Assembly (NCBI GenBank): GCA_017442805.1
Contig: JAFRZA010000014.1
Span: forward strand, 1-64,000
From: Erysipelotrichaceae bacterium
Lineage (GTDB): Bacteria > Bacillota_I > Bacilli_A > Erysipelotrichales > Erysipelotrichaceae
Length of the DNA: 64,000 bases
Reading direction: 5' to 3'
Of the stretch, positions 4,401-58,520 are shown one piece after another. Under the pieces are notes generated by a model. The model was not told the origin of the DNA. It ran no database searches and worked only from the letters and a program-made list of their open reading frames with translations. A program made the translations under genes and the position numbers. Position 1 is the stretch's first letter; each line of letters starts with the position of its first letter.

Positions 4401-5696
4401 GCGGTTCAGCAGAACCGGATGGCCATTGACCACCTGCTCGACGATGTCCCAGATCCGGGGATCCTGACGGTCGATCAGTTTTTCCGCACTCTTGGGGTTG
4501 GTGGAGATTTCCTGGTAAACCAGTTCGTTGATGACAAAGGGCTTGAAAAGCTGCAGAGCCATCTCGCGGGGGATGCCGCACTGGTTCATCTTCAGGTCCG
4601 GTCCGACCGCGATGACGGAACGGCCGGAGAAGTCAACACGCTTGCCCAGCAGGTTCTGACGGAAACGTCCCTGTTTGCCCTTGAGGGTGTGGGACAGAGA
4701 CTTCAGAGCCCGGTTGCCCGCGCCGGTGACCGGCTTGGAGCGGCGTCCGTTGTCGATCAGGGCGTCGACGGCCTCCTGAAGCATACGCTTCTCGTTCTGA
4801 ACGATGATGGAAGGCGTGCCCAGATCCAGCAGCTTCTGTAAGCGGTTGTTACGGGTAATTACTCTTCTGTAAAGATCGTTAAGGTCGCTGGTCGCGAAGC
4901 GGCCGCCGTCCAGCTGCATCATCGGACGCAGATCCGGCGGAATGACCGGCAGCTTGGTCAGGATCATCCATTCGGGTCTCTGACCGGACTGGCGGAAGGC
5001 GTTGATGGTGTCCAGGCGCTTGATCAGTTTCTTGCGCTTTTCACCCTGCGCGGTCTCCAGCTGAGCGGTCATGTCGCCGTATTCCTTTTCCAGATCGACG
5101 TCTTCCAGCAGTTTCCTGATGGCGGCGGCGCCGATCATGGCGGTAAAGGCGGATGAACCGTACTGCTCTCTTAATTCACGGTAACGGGCCGTGGAGATGA
5201 CCTGCTTGTAGGTCAGTTCGGTGACGTCCTTGGGATCGGTGACGATCCAGTTGACGAAGTAAACGACTTCCTCAAGCTGCTTGGGCGGAACGTCCAGCAG
5301 TAAGGCAATGCGGCTGGGGGTACCCTTGAGGTACCAGATGTGGGCTACCGGAGCGGCCAGTTCGATTCTGCCCATCCACTCTCTTCTGACGGAGCTTCTG
5401 GTAATCATGACGTCGCACTTGTCGCAGAAGATGCCCTTGTATCTTACCTTCTTGTATTTTCCGCAGGAACACTCCCAGTCCTTGGCCGGACCGAAGATCC
5501 TTTCGCAGAACAGACCGCCCTTCTCGGGCTTCTGAGAACGGTAGTTAATGGTTTCCGGCTTGGTGACGATGCCTTCAATGATGTTCTTCTCATCCTTATT
5601 GTTGGGATCCTTGTCACGGTAGCGTCTGGACCATTCGACGATGGTTTCAGGTGAGGCTAAGCCAATCTTAACAGTTGATACGTTATTGATATTCAT
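1419..5696 (-). CDS. rpoC: DNA-directed RNA polymerase subunit beta'
   Basis: Catalytic largest subunit of RNA polymerase, 1425 aa. Visible hallmarks are the N-terminal zinc site (Cys76, 78, 91, 94), the active-site NADFDGDQM near residue 464 whose three Asp bind Mg, the bridge-helix/trigger-loop block ([20 protein letters not shown]), and CxxRCYGRN followed by [18 protein letters not shown]. It is about 220 residues longer than Bacillus RpoC (1199 aa). Part of the excess is an acidic helical insertion at about residues 940-1030, between the region after the trigger loop and the second zinc motif. It follows rpoB with a 13-bp gap; AGGAGGT precedes the ATG. The tail is acidic (GDSDDSFDD). Confidence 0.99.
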
Positions 5697-5709
5697 TCAG
5701 CCATACCTC

Positions 5710-8700
5710 CTATTCAAATTCTTCGTCGTCGAAGCCGACAATGGCCTCCGGCAGAGCTTCAATGCTCTCTTCCGGACGGACTTCTTCCGGCTTCTCTTCC
5801 GGAAGTTCCTCAATGGCAGCCGGAGCAGCCGGATTGCGGTTGTCGTCATCGTTCTGGGAAATGTCCATGGCCTTGCCGTCCTTGTCGAAGACCTGAACGT
5901 CGAGAGCCAGAGCCTGCAGTTCGTGAACGAGAACGCGGAATGACTCGCCGACGGTCGGTTTCGGGATCGGCTTGCCCTTGATGATGGCTTCGTAGGTCCG
6001 GGTACGGCCGATGACGTCGTCACTCTTGACCGTCAGGATCTCGTTAAGGGTGTTGGCGGCGCCATAGGCCTCTAACGCCCATACTTCCATTTCACCGAAA
6101 CGCTGGCCGCCGTTCTGGGCCTTGCCGCCCAGAGGCTGCTGAGTAACCAGTGAGTAAGGACCGGTCGCTCTGGCGTGCAGCTTGTCGTCGACCATGTGAG
6201 CCAGCTTGATCATGTACATGACACCGACGGCGACCCTTTCGTCGAAGGCTTCGCCCGTACGGCCGTCAAACAGCTGTACCTTGCCGTCCGGCGTGGAGCC
6301 GGCTTCCTTCAGGATGCTCATCAGTTCTTCGTTGTTGATGCCGTCGAAGACCGGGGTAGCGAACTTGCAGCCCAGCTTCTCGGCAGCCAGACCCAGATGG
6401 ATCTCCAGAACCTGTCCGATGTTCATACGTGAGGGAACACCGAAGGGGTTGAGCATGATGTCGATCTGCGTGCCGTCAGCCATGTAAGGCATGTCTTCCT
6501 GCGGCAGGATCTTGGAGATGACGCCCTTGTTGCCGTGACGGCCGGCCATCTTGTCGCCTTCGGAAATCTTACGTTTCTGAACGATGTAGACCTTGATGAC
6601 TTCGTTGACGCCCGGTGAGAGGTCATGCTCGGCTCTGGTGAATCTTCTGATGCACTGGACGATACCGGCACCGCCGTGGGGGACCTTCAGGGAGTTGTCT
6701 CTGACTTCCTTGCTCTTCTCGCCGAAGATCGCGAATAACAGCTTCTCTTCCGGTGAGGAGTCGGACTGGCCCTTCGGGGTGACCTTGCCGACCAGAATGT
6801 CGCCTTCACGCACTTCCGCGCCCTTCATGATGATACCGTGGGAGTCCAGATTGCGGACAGCGGCCTCAGCCACGTTGGGGATGTCTCTGGTGATTTCTTC
6901 GTCACCGAGCTTGGTGGTGCGGCATTCGATCGAGTATTCTTCAATGTGGATCGAGGTGAAGATGTCTTCCTTGACCATCCTTTCGGACATGATGACGGCA
7001 TCTTCGTAGTTGTAGCCGTTCCAGGTCATGAAGGCGATCTTGACGTTCTGGCCCAGAGCCAGTTCGCCGTTTTCCATGGACGGGCCGTCAGCGATGACGT
7101 CGCCCTTTTCCACCTTTTCGCCGACCTGAACGATCGGAGTCTGGTTGATGCAGGTTCCGGCGTTGGAGCGGCGGAACTTGATCAGTTCGTATTCCGTCTT
7201 TTCACCGTTGTCCTCGGTGACGATGCGGGCGGCGTCAACGTAGGTGACGATGCCGTCCTTCTCGGCGACCAGGGCACTGCCGGCGTCACGGGCGATGTAG
7301 TATTCCATGCCGGTGCCGACGTTGGGTGAATGCGGCTTGAGCAGCGGTACGGCCTGTCTCTGCATGTTGGCGCCCATCAGAGCGCGGGATGCGTCGTCGT
7401 TCTCCAGGAAGGGGATGCAGGCGGCAGCGACCGAGATGATCTGCTTCGGGGAGACGTCGACCAGTTCGACTTCTTCTCTGGGCATCATGACGGTTTCGGT
7501 CTGATAACGGCAGACGCACTGATCATTGAACAGGTAGCCGTCCTTGACCTCGTTGGCCTGAGCGATGACGTAATCCATTTCATCGTCAGCGGACATGTAG
7601 ATGATGTCCTCGTCGGAGACTCTGTACCTGCCGTCTTCGGCAAAGACCTTGCGGTACGGGGTCTGAATGAAGCCGTACTCGTTGATCTTGGCGTAGGAAG
7701 TCAGGTAGTTGATAAGACCGATGTTGGGTCCTTCAGGAGTCTCTATCGGACAGATCCTGCCGTAGTGGGTAGCGTGAACGTCACGGACTTCGAAGCCCGC
7801 TCTCTCTCTGGTCAGACCGCCGGGGCCCAGCGCGGAGATACGGCGCTTGTTGGTCAGCTCAGCCAGCGGGTTCTGCTGGTCCATGAACTGCGACAGCTGT
7901 GATGAGGAGAAGAACTCCTTGACGGCCATGGTCAGGGAACGGATGTTGGTCAGGTTCTTGGCCGTGATCGAGGAAACCTCGGAAATCGACATCTTTTCCT
8001 TGACGTTCTTTTCCAGACGGGAGAAACCGATGCGGTACTGATTCTGGATCAGTTCGCCGACGGTTCTGATTCGCTTGTTACCCAGCTGGTCCACGTCGTC
8101 AACGCTGCCGACTTCGTCGGTCATGTTGAGCATGTAGGAATACTGGGCGTACATGTCGGAGATCACGATGGTCTTCTTCAGGGTCAGCGGGTCGGTGCCC
8201 AGGACCTTGACGGAATCGGTATCTTCCATGTGGTTCTTGACATAGATGACCTGACCGGCAGCGCCGACCAGATACAGCGTATAGTTCCTGCCGGCCTTGA
8301 CATCGGAAACGATGTTCTGGCGGGCAGCGTTGGTAAGGATCGGCTGCTCGGTGTCGGGGATGTAGCGGCTGACGACCAGTTCGCCATCCTTGTCCATGAC
8401 ATCGATGCCGTTTTCCAATAGACGGCCGTAGCAGTACAGTCTGCCGCCGTAATTGAGGACGGCGGAGACATTGTCGGCAGTCAGTTCAACGCCCTGAGCG
8501 ATGATGCCGCCGTAAACGGCAATTTCCTTCAGCGTGCGGCTGCGGGAGATGGCCTTGATGTCCTCTTCGGTCAGGACGGTGCCCTGTTCGAAGACATTGT
8601 CGCCGACCTTGACGGTTTCAGCCAGGATGCGGCCCTTCAGTCCGTTGCCGTAGGCCAGCGGGACGCTGACGGTATCGGGATGAGAGAACTCGTATTCCTG

Positions 8701-50529: not shown

Positions 50530-50619
50530 CAATTAACCGCTTATTTTTCCCCGAAGTGCCTGCTTAAAAACGGCGCGGTTTTTCGCGGTATGATATAGAA
50601 CACACAATATTAATTGGTA

Positions 50620-50646: not shown

Positions 50647-51651
50647 ATGGCACGTTACGTATATAACAGGCGATATCGCAGGCAGTCCAGTTTCCCCTGG
50701 GGTCTGATCTTCTTCTTTCTGATGACCTCGGGCTTTCTGGAAGTCGCCTTTGACTTTGCCGGAGACCTTTTCGATCTGATTATTATGGCAGGAGCAATTT
50801 TACTTGTATTTGGCATCCCGATCCTCATGTTTGTGGGATTCATTTCTCTGATCGGCAAGCTGATCGGCGCGGTCGGAAAGAAAAAAGTTTCCCGCTCAGC
50901 TACCAGCGTCTCCACCAAGGAACTGCTGAGCATTTTCCAGTCCTATTTTGAATACAACGATAAGCTTTACATCGATAACGATACCTACATTGTCAAGACC
51001 AGTGCTGCCGGAGCTTCGCTGGAGGAATACGATCTGTTCATGAACGATGAATACGTATCCGACCTCAAGCTGTTCGCCAACAGCTTCCCCAGCGGCTTCA
51101 ACAGCTTCGCCAACGTGGTCAAGGACCTGACTTCCAGCAAGAAGAAAAAGAAGAAGCAGAAGGAAGTCGAAGAACCCATCAAGAAAGAGGAAAAGAAGGA
51201 AGAGACCGTCGCACCGGCTACCGACTGCGCTTTCTACATCAGCCGTCTTACCTCCCTTTCCAGCAGCATCTCCAACCAGCAGATCCGTGAAGGCCTGGCG
51301 GAAAGCATCAAGTACCTGAATCAGATCAAGAAGATCGAAGACGAATTCAGCGAATGCAAGAACAAGACCACCAAGCTGTATCAGTACTATCTGCCGATGC
51401 TGACGGACATTCTGCAGAACTACGTAAGACTGAGTTCCAACACCTTCGAAAGCGAAGACCTCAAGGCTTCCGAGGACCGTCTGCTGAAGACCATCGTTCT
51501 GATCAACGGCGCTCTGAAGACCATCTCCTCATCGCTGACCGAAGACTACTATACCGACCTCAAGGTTGACATGAAGACTCTGGAATCCGTCCTGAAGAAG
51601 GACGGCCTGGTCGATGAAATGAACCAGACCGGTTCAGGGGAGGGCGAATAA
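50647..51651 (+). CDS. XpaC-like membrane protein
   Basis: 334 aa starting MARYVYNRRY, with AAGGAATAAGG upstream. Two membrane helices (about 16-38 and 44-72, SSFPWGLIFFFLMTSGFLEVAF and LIIMAGAILLVFGIPILMFVGFISLI) are followed by a cytosolic region with a Lys/Glu-rich linker (about 165-190) and a helical C-terminal domain (DCAFYISRLTSLSSSISNQQIREGLAESIKYLNQI...) resembling the '5-bromo-4-chloroindolyl phosphate hydrolysis' (XpaC) family. XpaC has no proven enzymatic role; in Bacillus xpaC precedes yaaN (telA family). Here telA lies three genes on, which strengthens the call. One-base overlap with the next gene. Confidence 0.7.
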   Translation: MARYVYNRRYRRQSSFPWGLIFFFLMTSGFLEVAFDFAGDLFDLIIMAGAILLVFGIPILMFVGFISLIGKLIGAVGKKKVSRSATSVSTKELLSIFQSYFEYNDKLYIDNDTYIVKTSAAGASLEEYDLFMNDEYVSDLKLFANSFPSGFNSFANVVKDLTSSKKKKKKQKEVEEPIKKEEKKEETVAPATDCAFYISRLTSLSSSISNQQIREGLAESIKYLNQIKKIEDEFSECKNKTTKLYQYYLPMLTDILQNYVRLSSNTFESEDLKASEDRLLKTIVLINGALKTISSSLTEDYYTDLKVDMKTLESVLKKDGLVDEMNQTGSGEGE

Positions 51652-52178
51652 TGGCTACCAATAAGAGCTGGAACGATTCTCTGGACGAACTGCTGGCCAA
51701 ACTGAACAACGGCGACTTCGTCGATCAGTCGGTCAGGGAATTCGCCAAGACCGTCAGCAACACCACTTCCGGATATACTTCCAGCGGGACTAATTCCCGC
51801 TACACTTCCTCGACCTACCGCAGCGTCATTCCGCACGTCAACCGGACGATCGAAAGTACCAGCTATGCTTCCCGTTACCTCCAGGTCGTGACCTGCATGG
51901 AAAACATCGTCTACGGCAAGTACCCCGCCAGCAAGAAGGACGGCTACCAGCAGTGCATCACGCGCTACATCGAAGAATGCAAGAACCATTCCTCCAACCT
52001 CAAGGTCGTTGAGGAATCGGTAACCAAGGACATGAATGAATACAAGGCCAAGGTCAATTCCGTGACCGTTGACGGCTTCCTGCAGGGGTATTACGATGCC
52101 CTGTTGATGGTCAAGAAGCTGCTCTACAACTCCAAGCTGGCCCGTCTTCAGGTCCTTACTAATAAGGTGAGCAGATAA
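51651..52178 (+). CDS. unrecognised 175-aa protein of the xpaC-AAA-telA operon
   Basis: 175 aa, soluble. The opening NKSWNDSLDELLAKLNNGDFVDQSVREFAKTVS is helical; a Ser/Thr/Tyr-rich low-complexity stretch follows (TTSGYTSSGTNSRYTSSTYRS, about 38-58), then a long helical part (MENIVYGKYPASKKDGYQQCITRYIEECK..., about 83-160). It starts and ends with one-base TAATG overlaps, so its product is probably made in fixed ratio with XpaC and the ATPase. No family recognised; an adaptor or substrate of the ATPase is one guess. Confidence 0.75.
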   Translation: MATNKSWNDSLDELLAKLNNGDFVDQSVREFAKTVSNTTSGYTSSGTNSRYTSSTYRSVIPHVNRTIESTSYASRYLQVVTCMENIVYGKYPASKKDGYQQCITRYIEECKNHSSNLKVVEESVTKDMNEYKAKVNSVTVDGFLQGYYDALLMVKKLLYNSKLARLQVLTNKVSR

Positions 52179-54202
52179 TGGCTAAGTCAAGAGAAGAAGA
52201 AAAAAGAGAACTGATGGAGAAGGTTTTCGGCAAGGACGCTCCGAACCGCAAGCTGACCGATGAAGACAAGGCGGTCCTGAACAAGAACCCCTTTACCGGT
52301 GAGCTGATTTCCGACGAACTGGAAAAGCTGAAACAGAACAGTGAGATCATCAACAAGCAGTTTGAGGAAATCAACGGACTGTTCACCGACAGCGGACTGG
52401 ATGAGCTCTCCCAGAGTCTGAAGACCGACTTCGGTGAGGACTTTGATCTGGGCAAGGAAGAAAGCCTGAACATCGTCTTTGACCAGAACAGCCTGGGCGA
52501 CAAGTTCACCGCCATCGAAGCGGCTGTCGGCGAGGAAGTGCTCTGCCAGGACGAATATCTGCAGGCTCTCTCCAAGGCCTTCCGGCGTCCCTTCGTCATG
52601 GGACAGCAGCCCAGCGGTCTCAACTGCGCCATGCTGATAACCGGAGGCAACGATACCGGCCGCCACACTTCCGTCGAACAGATGGTCAGACAGCTCAAGG
52701 CCAACAACCTGCTGGCCAATGACGCCATCGCCACCATCGACCTGGAGAAGTATGCCAGCAAGGAAGATGAGAATAACTTCATCATCGACCTCTACGGCGC
52801 CATCAACAACAGCCAGGTCATCATCTTCGACAACATTCAGTACTGCTCCGCCAGCTATCTGACCTACATCGAGGAGATCCTGCTTGAAGGCAAGCTCTCC
52901 CTGTCCAAGCGCTACATACTCAACAACAAGCAGCTGGTGGAAACCACCAACTCGCTGGCCAAGAACACCATCAAGCAGCTGAGCTTTGCCGGCAAGTTTC
53001 TGGTGTTCATCACCCCGCTGAAGACCAGCAAGCTGCTCAACGTCGTCGGATCCCGCTTCATCAACAACCTCTCCGATTCCCTGGTCACCCGTGACCTGAC
53101 GGTAGAGGACATGATAAAGATCTTCCCGAAGAAGCTCAACGGTCTGAAGACCCGCTGTCTGACGACCCTGAACCTGCTTCTGGAAGCCGATGAATCGATG
53201 AACGACTACATCCGCGACCGCTACAACGGTGAAAACGCCGGATTCCTGGTCAACCTGATCACCCTGCTGTACAACGGCCTGTCCGAATACAAGCTGCAGA
53301 ATCTGGTCAACGAGACCCAGAACGCCGTGATCAGCTACCGGGACAACCAGCTGTTCATCAACGAAGACCCCTTCGACAAGTACCTTCCGGTCATTGTCGA
53401 CAATGCCATCGAGGAAGTCCGCAAGGAACTCGATCAGCTGGTCGGCCTGACCGAAGTCAAGAAGTACATCTACTCCCTGCAGGACTTCTATGCAGCCCAG
53501 CAGATGCGTAAGTCCCAGGGTCTCAAGACCACCGAGGTTTCCAAGCACATGATCTTCACGGGCAACCCGGGCACTGGCAAGACCACCATCGCCCGCATCC
53601 TGGCCAAGTACCTTAAGGCCATCGGCGTGCTGTCCAACGGCCAGCTCATTGAAGTATCGAGAAGCGACCTGGTTGGCAAGTACGTCGGCCACACCGCTCC
53701 GCTGACCATGCAGGTCATCAAGTCGGCCATCGGCGGCATCCTGTTCATCGATGAAGCCTACTCGCTCTACCGCGGGGAAAACGACTCCTTCGGTCTGGAA
53801 GCCATCGACACCCTGGTCAAGGCGATGGAAGACAACCGCGAAGACCTGATCGTCATACTGGCGGGCTACACCAGGGAAATGAAGACCTTCCTGACTTCCA
53901 ACTCCGGTCTGCAGTCCCGTTTCCCCAACCAGATCGAATTCCCGGACTACACCGGCGAAGAGCTCTTCGGCATCGCTCAGATCAATGCCAAGAGCGCCGG
54001 CTATAAGATCGACGAAGGCGCCGCGGAGGCGCTGACCGCCTACTTCACCAAGGTCCAGGAAAACGACTCGGTACGCTCCGGCAACGGCCGTCTCTCCCGC
54101 AACATGGTCGAGGCCGCCATTCTCAATCAGTCCAAGCGCGTGCTCAACGACAGGGATGCCGCGATCGACGTGCTTCTGCTTGAAGACTTTGATCTCAGTT
54201 AG
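52178..54202 (+). CDS. double AAA protein: degenerate Clp-D2-like module plus CbxX/SpoVK-type AAA+ ATPase
   Basis: 674 aa. An N-terminal acidic coiled region (1-110) leads to LCQDEYLQALSKAFRRPF (about 122-139), which looks like the start of a ClpA/B D2 module. Its Walker A is broken (ITGGNDTGRHTS, about 152-163, no GK[ST]) and its Walker B ends FDN rather than DE (VIIFDNIQ, about 213). The second module (about 415-674) is intact: VGLTEVKKYI, Walker A GNPGTGKTTIA (about 463-473), SRSDLVGKYVGHTA (pore-loop region), Walker B GILFIDEAYSLY (about 521), sensor VILAGYT and arginine finger SRFP. CbxX/SpoVK relatives remodel protein complexes (Rubisco activase CbbX). The dead first module may be structural. 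Confidence 0.85.
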   Translation: MAKSREEEKRELMEKVFGKDAPNRKLTDEDKAVLNKNPFTGELISDELEKLKQNSEIINKQFEEINGLFTDSGLDELSQSLKTDFGEDFDLGKEESLNIVFDQNSLGDKFTAIEAAVGEEVLCQDEYLQALSKAFRRPFVMGQQPSGLNCAMLITGGNDTGRHTSVEQMVRQLKANNLLANDAIATIDLEKYASKEDENNFIIDLYGAINNSQVIIFDNIQYCSASYLTYIEEILLEGKLSLSKRYILNNKQLVETTNSLAKNTIKQLSFAGKFLVFITPLKTSKLLNVVGSRFINNLSDSLVTRDLTVEDMIKIFPKKLNGLKTRCLTTLNLLLEADESMNDYIRDRYNGENAGFLVNLITLLYNGLSEYKLQNLVNETQNAVISYRDNQLFINEDPFDKYLPVIVDNAIEEVRKELDQLVGLTEVKKYIYSLQDFYAAQQMRKSQGLKTTEVSKHMIFTGNPGTGKTTIARILAKYLKAIGVLSNGQLIEVSRSDLVGKYVGHTAPLTMQVIKSAIGGILFIDEAYSLYRGENDSFGLEAIDTLVKAMEDNREDLIVILAGYTREMKTFLTSNSGLQSRFPNQIEFPDYTGEELFGIAQINAKSAGYKIDEGAAEALTAYFTKVQENDSVRSGNGRLSRNMVEAAILNQSKRVLNDRDAAIDVLLLEDFDLS

Positions 54203-54209
54203 CTATAAT
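54180..54209 (+). promoter_or_regulatory. candidate internal promoter before telA
   Basis: TTGAAG (54180-54185), 18-bp spacer, TATAAT (54204-54209) straddle the end of the ATPase gene. The 43-bp gap before telA is the only sizeable one in this operon, so telA may also be expressed alone. Confidence 0.6.
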
Positions 54210-54245
54210 TTAGTTAATCAGATATAAATTGGAGGAATTGCATAA

Positions 54246-55382
54246 ATGGATAACGAAAACATTGTTCTGACTCTCGAATCCAAGGCCGAACAGCTCACCG
54301 AAGAGCCAATCGTTCAGGAAAAGAAAGACATTCAGCCCGCCAAGCTGGACACTTCCATGCTGACGGAAGCCGACCAGAAGATGGTCGATGAATTCTCCGA
54401 GAAGATCGACATCACCCAGACCGACATCATCATGTCCTACGGTTCCGACGCTCAGAAGAAAGTCGCTGACTTCTCTTCCAACGCCCTCAACGACGTCAAG
54501 ACCAAGGACCTCGGTCAGATCGGCGACATGATCTCCGACCTGGTCGTCGAACTGAAGGGCTTTGAGATCGACAATCAGGAAAAGGGCATCAAGTCCTGGT
54601 TCAAGAAATCAGCCAACAAGGTTCAGGGCCTGAAGGCCAAGTACGACAAGGCTGAAGTCAATGTCAACAAGATCTGCGACCTGCTCGAAGGCCATCAGAT
54701 TCAGCTGCTGAAGGACATTGCCCTGCTGGATGAACTCTATGACAAGAACGAGATCAACAAGAAGGAACTGACCATGTACATCCTGGCCGGTCAGAAAAAG
54801 CTGAAATACGCCCAGGAAGTTGAACTGCCGAAGCTGGTCGCCACCGCTCAGGAAACCGGTCTTACCGAAGATTCCCAGAGAGCCAACGACTACGCCAACC
54901 TGATCAACCGCTTCGAGAAGAAGCTCCATGACCTGGAACTGACCAGAATGATCTCCATCCAGATGGCCCCGCAGATCAGACTCATTCAGAACAATGACAC
55001 CCTGATGGCGGAAAAGATCCAGTCCACCCTGGTCAACACCATCCCGCTGTGGAAGAGCCAGATGGTCATCGCCCTCGGCCTGTCCCATTCTCAGGAAGCC
55101 ATCGAAGCCGAAAAGGCTGTCGATGCCATGACCAACGAACTTCTCAAGAAGAACGCCGAAGCTCTGAAGCAGGGCACCATCGCTACGGCCGAAGCCAGCG
55201 AAAAGGGCATTGTCGAGCTTGAGACTCTGCAGTTCACCAACAAGTCCCTGATTGAGACTCTGGACGAAGTCCTGAAGATCCAGACCGAAGGACGTCAGAA
55301 GAGAACGGCTGCTGAAGTCGAACTCCGCAAGCTGGAAGCCGAATTAAGAGAAAAGCTTCTGGAAGTCAAGAAGTTCAACTAA
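54246..55382 (+). CDS. TelA/YaaN-family toxic-anion resistance protein
   Basis: 378 aa, almost wholly helical and soluble. The family core is visible in KGIKSWFKKSANKVQGLKAKYDKAEVNVNKICDLLEGHQIQLLKDIALLDELYDKN (about 112-166), then LELTRMISIQMAPQIRLIQNNDTLMAEKIQSTLVNTIPLWKSQMVIAL (about 225-273), which matches TelA/KlaA proteins tied to tellurite resistance. The biochemical function of TelA is unknown; links to envelope stress and Ter systems have been proposed. GGAGG lies 9 bp upstream. A terminator follows, which closes the four-gene unit. Confidence 0.88.
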   Translation: MDNENIVLTLESKAEQLTEEPIVQEKKDIQPAKLDTSMLTEADQKMVDEFSEKIDITQTDIIMSYGSDAQKKVADFSSNALNDVKTKDLGQIGDMISDLVVELKGFEIDNQEKGIKSWFKKSANKVQGLKAKYDKAEVNVNKICDLLEGHQIQLLKDIALLDELYDKNEINKKELTMYILAGQKKLKYAQEVELPKLVATAQETGLTEDSQRANDYANLINRFEKKLHDLELTRMISIQMAPQIRLIQNNDTLMAEKIQSTLVNTIPLWKSQMVIALGLSHSQEAIEAEKAVDAMTNELLKKNAEALKQGTIATAEASEKGIVELETLQFTNKSLIETLDEVLKIQTEGRQKRTAAEVELRKLEAELREKLLEVKKFN

Positions 55383-55401
55383 GCATCATTACTAAGGATC
55401 G

Positions 55402-55431
55402 AAACCTCCGGATCACCGGAGGTTTTCTTTC
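55402..55431 (+). terminator. terminator after telA
   Basis: Perfect 10-bp stem AAACCTCCGG/CCGGAGGTTT, loop ATCA, tail TCTTT. Confidence 0.9.
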
Positions 55432-58076: not shown

Positions 58077-58520
58077 TTACTTGTGCTTGATGACCATGTT
58101 GCCTTCCAGCAGAGCGCCGGCGGCGACAGACAGTCTTTCGGCACTGACAGCACCGTTGATCTCAGCGGATGAGAGAACATCCAGCTGATTGTTTACTTCG
58201 ATGTTGCCGTTGACCAGAGCGTCAATGCTGGCGTTCTTGGCCTTCATGTCAGCCGAGATCTTGCTGCCCTTTTCGACAGTCAGGGTAGCGCGGCTGGTAA
58301 TGGTGCCGTCGATCTTGGCACCGTCAACGATCAGGATGTCGTTAGCCTTGATGCTGCCCTGCAGAGTTCCGGAAATGTAGGCGTTGCCTTCGGACTTCAG
58401 GGTACCGTTGAACTGACCCTTCAGCTCGACGTCACCACCGCAGGTGATGGTGCCGGCCAGGCCTTCGATAACGGTTGATGAACCGATTATGGTCTTGCTG
58501 TTTTCAATAATCTCACTCAT
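58077..58520 (-). CDS. bactofilin (polymer-forming cytoskeletal protein) 1
   Basis: 147 aa. A right-handed beta-helix built of short repeats (LKGQFNGTLKSEGNAYISGTLQGSIKANDILIVDGAKIDGTI...), the bactofilin (DUF583) core, with short tails. Bactofilins assemble nucleotide-free filaments at the membrane and guide cell-wall enzymes in rod- or stalk-forming bacteria. It lies 10 bp after a second bactofilin, sharing the first four residues MSEI; the pair may co-assemble. Confidence 0.9.
   Translation of the reverse strand: MSEIIENSKTIIGSSTVIEGLAGTITCGGDVELKGQFNGTLKSEGNAYISGTLQGSIKANDILIVDGAKIDGTITSRATLTVEKGSKISADMKAKNASIDALVNGNIEVNNQLDVLSSAEINGAVSAERLSVAAGALLEGNMVIKHK

Follow-up and report, generated by a model that had tools for sequence, protein, structure and literature searches.

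Four adjacent genes of an Erysipelotrichaceae bacterium encode, in order, a divergent XpaC-like protein (XpaC1), a protein of 175 residues (p175), a protein with two AAA modules (double AAA) and TelA, and the linkage of these four is well supported by their gene neighbourhoods and their joint occurrence across genomes. XpaC and TelA occur widely; both are members of cell-envelope stress regulons and influence the tolerance of antimicrobial peptides. We give a rough probability of 0.55 to a reading in which they form a sub-membrane envelope-stress complex that is assembled or taken apart by a dedicated two-ring AAA+ protein, through a mechanism that we infer. The data suggest that the TelA/XpaC stress response of gut Erysipelotrichaceae is powered by a motor that remodels proteins.

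The four genes and their products

Coordinates refer to the window, that is, the whole 64,000-nt stretch of contig JAFRZA010000014.1 (GCA_017442805.1) that was analysed. Four ORFs were verified between 50647 and 55382, all on the + strand (Table 1); an in-frame TTG lies at 50614, 5' of the XpaC1 start. TAATG overlaps join XpaC1 to p175 (51649-51653) and p175 to the double AAA gene (52176-52180). TelA starts without an overlap, after a 43-nt gap and with its own GGAGG ribosome-binding site, and the promoter-like site before it is one of five such sites in the region, where 2.7 are expected. The hairpin after telA has a predicted stability of -20.1 kcal/mol (z -4.4), which none of 200 shuffles equalled. 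The four genes, the overlaps among the first three and the strong terminator had all been described in a sequence-only reading of this DNA, and the ORF calls and hairpin statistics show them to be real. In comparison with locus L040, whose double AAA protein is 93% identical to that of the window, dN/dS for the four genes is 0.10, 0.10, 0.09 and 0.05; since all are under purifying selection, they are not chance ORFs. Downstream of the unit are two bactofilin-type genes, one at 58077-58520 (-; PF04519) and an adjoining one of 198 aa, and the pair keeps its position in L040, L042, L050 and L051. Bactofilins polymerise into cytoskeletal structures associated with the membrane.

Table 1. Features of the XpaC1-p175-double AAA-TelA locus, in window coordinates
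Feature	Coordinates	Strand	Description
XpaC1	50647..51651	+	334 aa; ATG start; predicted divergent XpaC-family membrane protein
p175	51651..52178	+	175 aa; new family; adjoins XpaC1 in 39/39 genomes
Double AAA protein	52178..54202	+	674 aa
ClpC/ClpB-D2-like module, predicted dead	52499..53350	+	double AAA residues ~108-391
CbbX/SpoVK-type AAA domain, predicted active	53411..54196	+	double AAA residues ~412-673
Promoter-like site before telA	54180..54209	+	TTGAAG-18-TATAAT; consensus match only
TelA	54246..55382	+	378 aa; PF05816
Intrinsic terminator hairpin after telA	55401..55426	+	T-rich tail

The window XpaC1 gives a weak match to PF10112 (E=0.0067; 16.9 bits, below the Pfam cut-off of 29.8), and across its family 29/38 members match at E<=0.01, the best at 1e-24. 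Judged from these profiles gene 1 is a divergent XpaC, a label that is weak for the window protein itself. The sequence-only reading had called it an XpaC-like membrane protein. In the structural model, helices at residues 18-75, which probably form two transmembrane segments, are followed by an alpha/beta domain (90-172) and a helical bundle (194-318) in the XpaC region; at a pTM of 0.44, the packing of these domains is unsure. A fold search of XpaC1 against the PDB returned no match at E<=0.001, and the XpaC profile found no solved relative among PDB sequences. Two further kinds of gene were seen upstream of XpaC1. One, which lies immediately 5' of XpaC1 at L069:4905-5741 and at 11 further loci, those of Solobacterium-like genomes among them, encodes an orphan protein of ~280 aa with no Pfam match and may represent a further component. 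The other is transcribed divergently and encodes a highly charged helical protein of ~200 aa (L108:919-1524 (-) and 10 other loci), mainly in genomes without a linked TelA.

For p175 no significant match was found in Pfam, NCBIfam, PHROGs or PADLOC, and a fold search against the PDB gave none at E<=0.001, hence we make no claim about its fold; the novelty first ascribed to this protein stands. Profile comparison using hhalign showed no relation to XpaC or TelA. The p175 model has low-confidence N-terminal helices and then a confident helical bundle (residues ~61-175). A search of 392 genomes from the phylum placed p175 in Erysipelotrichales alone, three marginal matches excepted. Solobacterium-like genomes have XpaC1 and the double AAA gene without p175, and in one of them (G012) a shortened gene that looks p175-like by eye occupies its place. 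Conversely, p175 and XpaC1 occur without any double AAA in G070, G095 and G099 (L153, L154), which ties p175 closer to XpaC1 than to the ATPase. In G070 and G095 the XpaC1 gene is duplicated in tandem.

The C-terminal half of the double AAA protein is a CbbX/SpoVK-type ring, with profile E-values of 8e-94 for SpoVK (TIGR02881), 5e-74 for CbbX and 3e-73 for EccA, and it lies under all three equivalog cut-offs, at 313/423, 249/459 and 247/467 bits. In the window this ring carries GNPGTGKTT, FIDEAYSL and the pore-loop motif KYVG, and its Walker A, Walker B and pore-loop tyrosine are kept in 77/77 homologues. As a single sequence the N-terminal half aligns to positions 554-849 of ClpB, in D2 (E=4e-6), and as a family profile it matches ClpC at 4.5e-20 and ClpB at 5e-18. 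Its Walker A reads GRH in the window, against the canonical GKT/S, and the Walker B glutamate is replaced (DN). Among the 77 homologues the Lys-Ser/Thr pair of this Walker A is RH in 47, KH in 29 and RY in one, with histidine at the Ser/Thr position in 76, and none keeps the Walker B glutamate. Furthermore, the module has a shortened version of the segment that bears the D2 pore loop in ClpC and ClpB, and its profile shows a residue other than arginine at the Arg-finger position. Judged by these motif states, the first ring is conserved but dead and the second is an intact motor; the sequence-only reading had likewise called the one dead and the other active.

Proteins of 919-1131 aa with a match to the Clp-D2-like module were seen in G518, G538, G552, G667 and G697, so larger architectures that contain it may exist. 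Distant relatives of the module are also encoded on two short contigs labelled Bacteriophage sp. (MT837216.1 and MT836432.1), which are possibly bacterial. A plasmid or phage origin was considered and rejected: the distant AAA relatives there amount to one plasmid and the two phage-labelled contigs, and the window locus bears no signs of mobility. Anti-phage defence was likewise rejected, as all PADLOC matches were weak ones to AAA domains, the best being IetA at 5.5e-8.

Gene 4 is certainly TelA by sequence, matching PF05816 over its full length (E=1e-112; 377 bits against a cut-off of 30). The TelA profile found no solved relative among PDB sequences. In three genomes of one genus (G006, G114 and G145; L169, L170 and L171) telA lies away from the double AAA gene, directly after an apparent rsmG-noc-parA-parB cluster, an arrangement read by eye in L169. 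Such clusters are typical of the replication origin.

Gene neighbourhoods and co-occurrence across genomes

We scanned 84,980 species genomes and took the 80 best loci as a neighbourhood set. In this set, with the window included, all 32 p175 genes are preceded by XpaC1 and followed by the double AAA gene. TelA is present on 20 of the 80 best loci, usually just downstream; nine of these 20 have a second, short XpaC between the AAA gene and TelA (PF10112 at 1e-13 in L043), and in these nine LemA and TPM genes lie 3' of TelA. Counted by genome in Erysipelotrichales, p175 and the AAA gene are linked in 28/35. XpaC1 adjoins p175 in 39/39, XpaC1 and the AAA gene are linked in 47/54, and the AAA gene and TelA are within 6 kb in 23/55, these being lower bounds on account of contig ends; many of the genomes are fragmented assemblies. 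The conserved block is XpaC1-p175(-AAA), and the order of all four genes is just one of the arrangements seen. The expectation of recurrence in the same order held for this block; TelA is often elsewhere, many relatives have a second, short XpaC before TelA, genomes of the Solobacterium type lack p175, and in Clostridia the AAA gene stands alone.

Co-occurrence was counted in 148 Erysipelotrichales genomes, in which the double AAA is carried by 56, p175 by 39, TelA (over cut-off) by 64 and XpaC1-type genes by 59. Both the AAA protein and TelA are found in 55 genomes, the AAA protein only in one, TelA only in nine and neither in 83 (Fisher value 8e-30, which ignores phylogeny and is a summary of the counts only). 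The AAA carriers span 23 genera, and carriers and non-carriers are found within the same family. Six of the nine genomes with TelA and no AAA protein also lack XpaC1; the already mentioned G070, G095 and G099 combine XpaC1, p175 and TelA, which shows that the ATPase is not always needed.

In a quick tree of the AAA protein the XpaC-linked forms, which are from Erysipelotrichales, group together, and a single lone member on a long branch (L119) falls among them. Lone AAA genes are found in Lachnospiraceae, Oscillospiraceae and Christensenellaceae, and their neighbours in Clostridia are varied. TelA is nevertheless present in 35/35 of the Clostridia with a lone AAA gene, against a base rate of 88/196 genomes (near 45%) in one order that has lone AAA genes; three of those 196 genomes, the centre genome included, have a strong AAA match and all three have TelA. 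XpaC lies directly 5' of TelA in 15/15 of the TelA genes examined in lone-AAA Clostridia, with LemA and TPM 3' in six. Hence the ATPase goes together with XpaC-TelA even in genomes where its gene lies apart from theirs, and a joint role is better evidenced than by the operon alone. On a Lachnospiraceae contig that also carries a double AAA gene (L084), a ClpX-like AAA with a ClpX zinc finger is encoded at 5419-6906, directly 5' of XpaC and TelA.

These counts bear on a reading of the ATPase as a general chaperone, similar to CbbX/SpoVK, whose gene happens to adjoin xpaC and telA in this lineage, the pattern then reflecting a shared gut-Bacillota lifestyle or envelope with no complex involved. 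The lone genes with varied neighbours in Clostridia would fit such a chaperone, as would the finding that fewer than half of the genomes have TelA within 6 kb of the AAA gene. The joint counts of the two families (55/1/9/83), with carriers and non-carriers in one family, the excess of TelA in the Clostridia and the conserved XpaC1-AAA adjacency all run against it, and we consider it unlikely. The claim that the four genes make up one system is supported by recurrence (39/39 and 28/35) and co-occurrence, and not as regards a conserved four-gene unit.

TelA is annotated as a toxic-anion protein and occurs in Ter operons (PMC7824862), so the locus might be a variant of the tellurite system in which TelA works with TerD/TerC/TerB-type partners against toxic anions. 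TerD is present in only 3/148 genomes, in two of which (G094 and G123) its neighbour is a more distant TelA and no AAA protein is encoded, and in only 1/56 of the genomes with the AAA protein (G093). This variant thus seems very improbable to us. A classical Ter system is rejected by the same distribution, there being no TerD in the window genome (G000).

A possible remodelling mechanism

In the favoured reading of a sub-membrane complex with its own motor, XpaC1 would anchor the complex through its N-terminal helices, and p175, as the partner of XpaC1 in the cytosol, would serve as an adaptor for recruiting the ATPase to XpaC1. The dead Clp-D2-like module might act as a docking or oligomerisation platform that does not translocate, and the CbbX/SpoVK-like ring would grip a tail of TelA or XpaC via its pore-loop tyrosine, pull, and so recycle or switch the complex. 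The output would be tolerance of membrane-active or cell-wall-active insults. Analogies for the pulling step are provided by CbbX, which remodels Rubisco, and Vps4, which remodels ESCRT-III. The AAA protein could act on other proteins. The co-occurrence of a dedicated ATPase with XpaC/TelA across Erysipelotrichales and Clostridia makes the mechanism testable, the question being what the ring pulls on.

XpaC-TelA may even be a bacterial system that remodels membranes and is recycled by an ATPase of its own, similar to ESCRT-III/Vps4 but made of unrelated parts, in which a pseudo-Clp ring joined to a CbbX-type motor in one protein is docked via p175 on the membrane anchor XpaC1 and acts on TelA; we offer this as a tentative and somewhat doubtful extension. 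A different link to remodelling would be that the protein is a PspA-associated double AAA which serves PspA, with TelA and XpaC as side components. A 2024 survey of PSP systems reports a two-AAA protein with an inactive N-terminal domain that co-occurs with PspA in some bacteria, a feature that the window protein fits, and describes TPM genes beside PspA (PMC11237479), much as TPM genes lie beside TelA here. Set against this, the window unit contains no PspA, and PspA is not among the 25 commonest families encoded within two genes of lone AAA genes in either direction. We judge a service to PspA to be quite improbable.

Comparison with known systems

The pairing of XpaC with TelA is already known. 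The xpaC-yaaN (xpaC-telA) operon of Bacillus, Listeria and Lactococcus encodes the two families together, as does the window gene cluster with XpaC1 and telA, and belongs to envelope-stress regulons (PMC3498285, PMC3139573, PMC12791056): xpaC-yaaN is a member of the sigma-W regulon (PMC3498285), expression of xpaC-telA goes up when CesSR responds in Lactococcus (PMC3139573) and the Listeria pair is induced by a bacteriocin (PMC12791056). In Enterococcus faecium, xpaC also belongs to the LiaR response (PMC10269926), and, according to the citing passage in PMC12791056, telA disruption in Listeria increased sensitivity to nisin 4-fold and to tellurite 2-fold. Of the proposed role in envelope stress or against toxic anions, the first half is consistent with this literature, which links the two families chiefly to envelope stress and cationic peptides, whereas the toxic-anion half derives from a Pfam family name only. 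The window differs from these operons in that no ATPase or p175 is described for Bacillus, Listeria or Lactococcus in the cited literature, in the extra alpha/beta domain of XpaC1 and in having no short XpaC.

Our literature search found no description of a double AAA coupled to XpaC-TelA, of the p175 family or of the XpaC1 variant. Within that search the XpaC-TelA coupling and p175 fit the proposal of an undescribed system; for the AAA protein, a PspA partner with two AAA domains, of which the N-terminal one is inactive, had been noted in 2024. That protein (PMC11237479, in a section on Vps4 and further AAA+ ATPases), for which ATP-dependent membrane remodelling is proposed, resembles ours in its described architecture; it is reported with PspA rather than with XpaC, TelA or p175, and neither XpaC nor TelA is named in the main text of that survey. 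The Ter system (TerB/C/D/F with TelA) shares the TelA family and differs in the TerD that is absent here, and its TelA in the same order scores far lower, at about 250 bits against 377-428.

With the CbbX/SpoVK/EccA family the window protein shares a C-terminal ring of ~250 aa (E 1e-73 to 1e-94) with intact motifs and pore loop, and differs in falling below the equivalog cut-offs and in bearing the N-terminal module. That module aligns across both the large and small D2 subdomains of ClpC/ClpB (4.5e-20) but has lost the residues for nucleotide binding and hydrolysis, the Arg finger and the pore-loop segment. A conserved pseudo-ATPase ring joined to a CbbX-type motor in one protein is an unusual AAA+ architecture.
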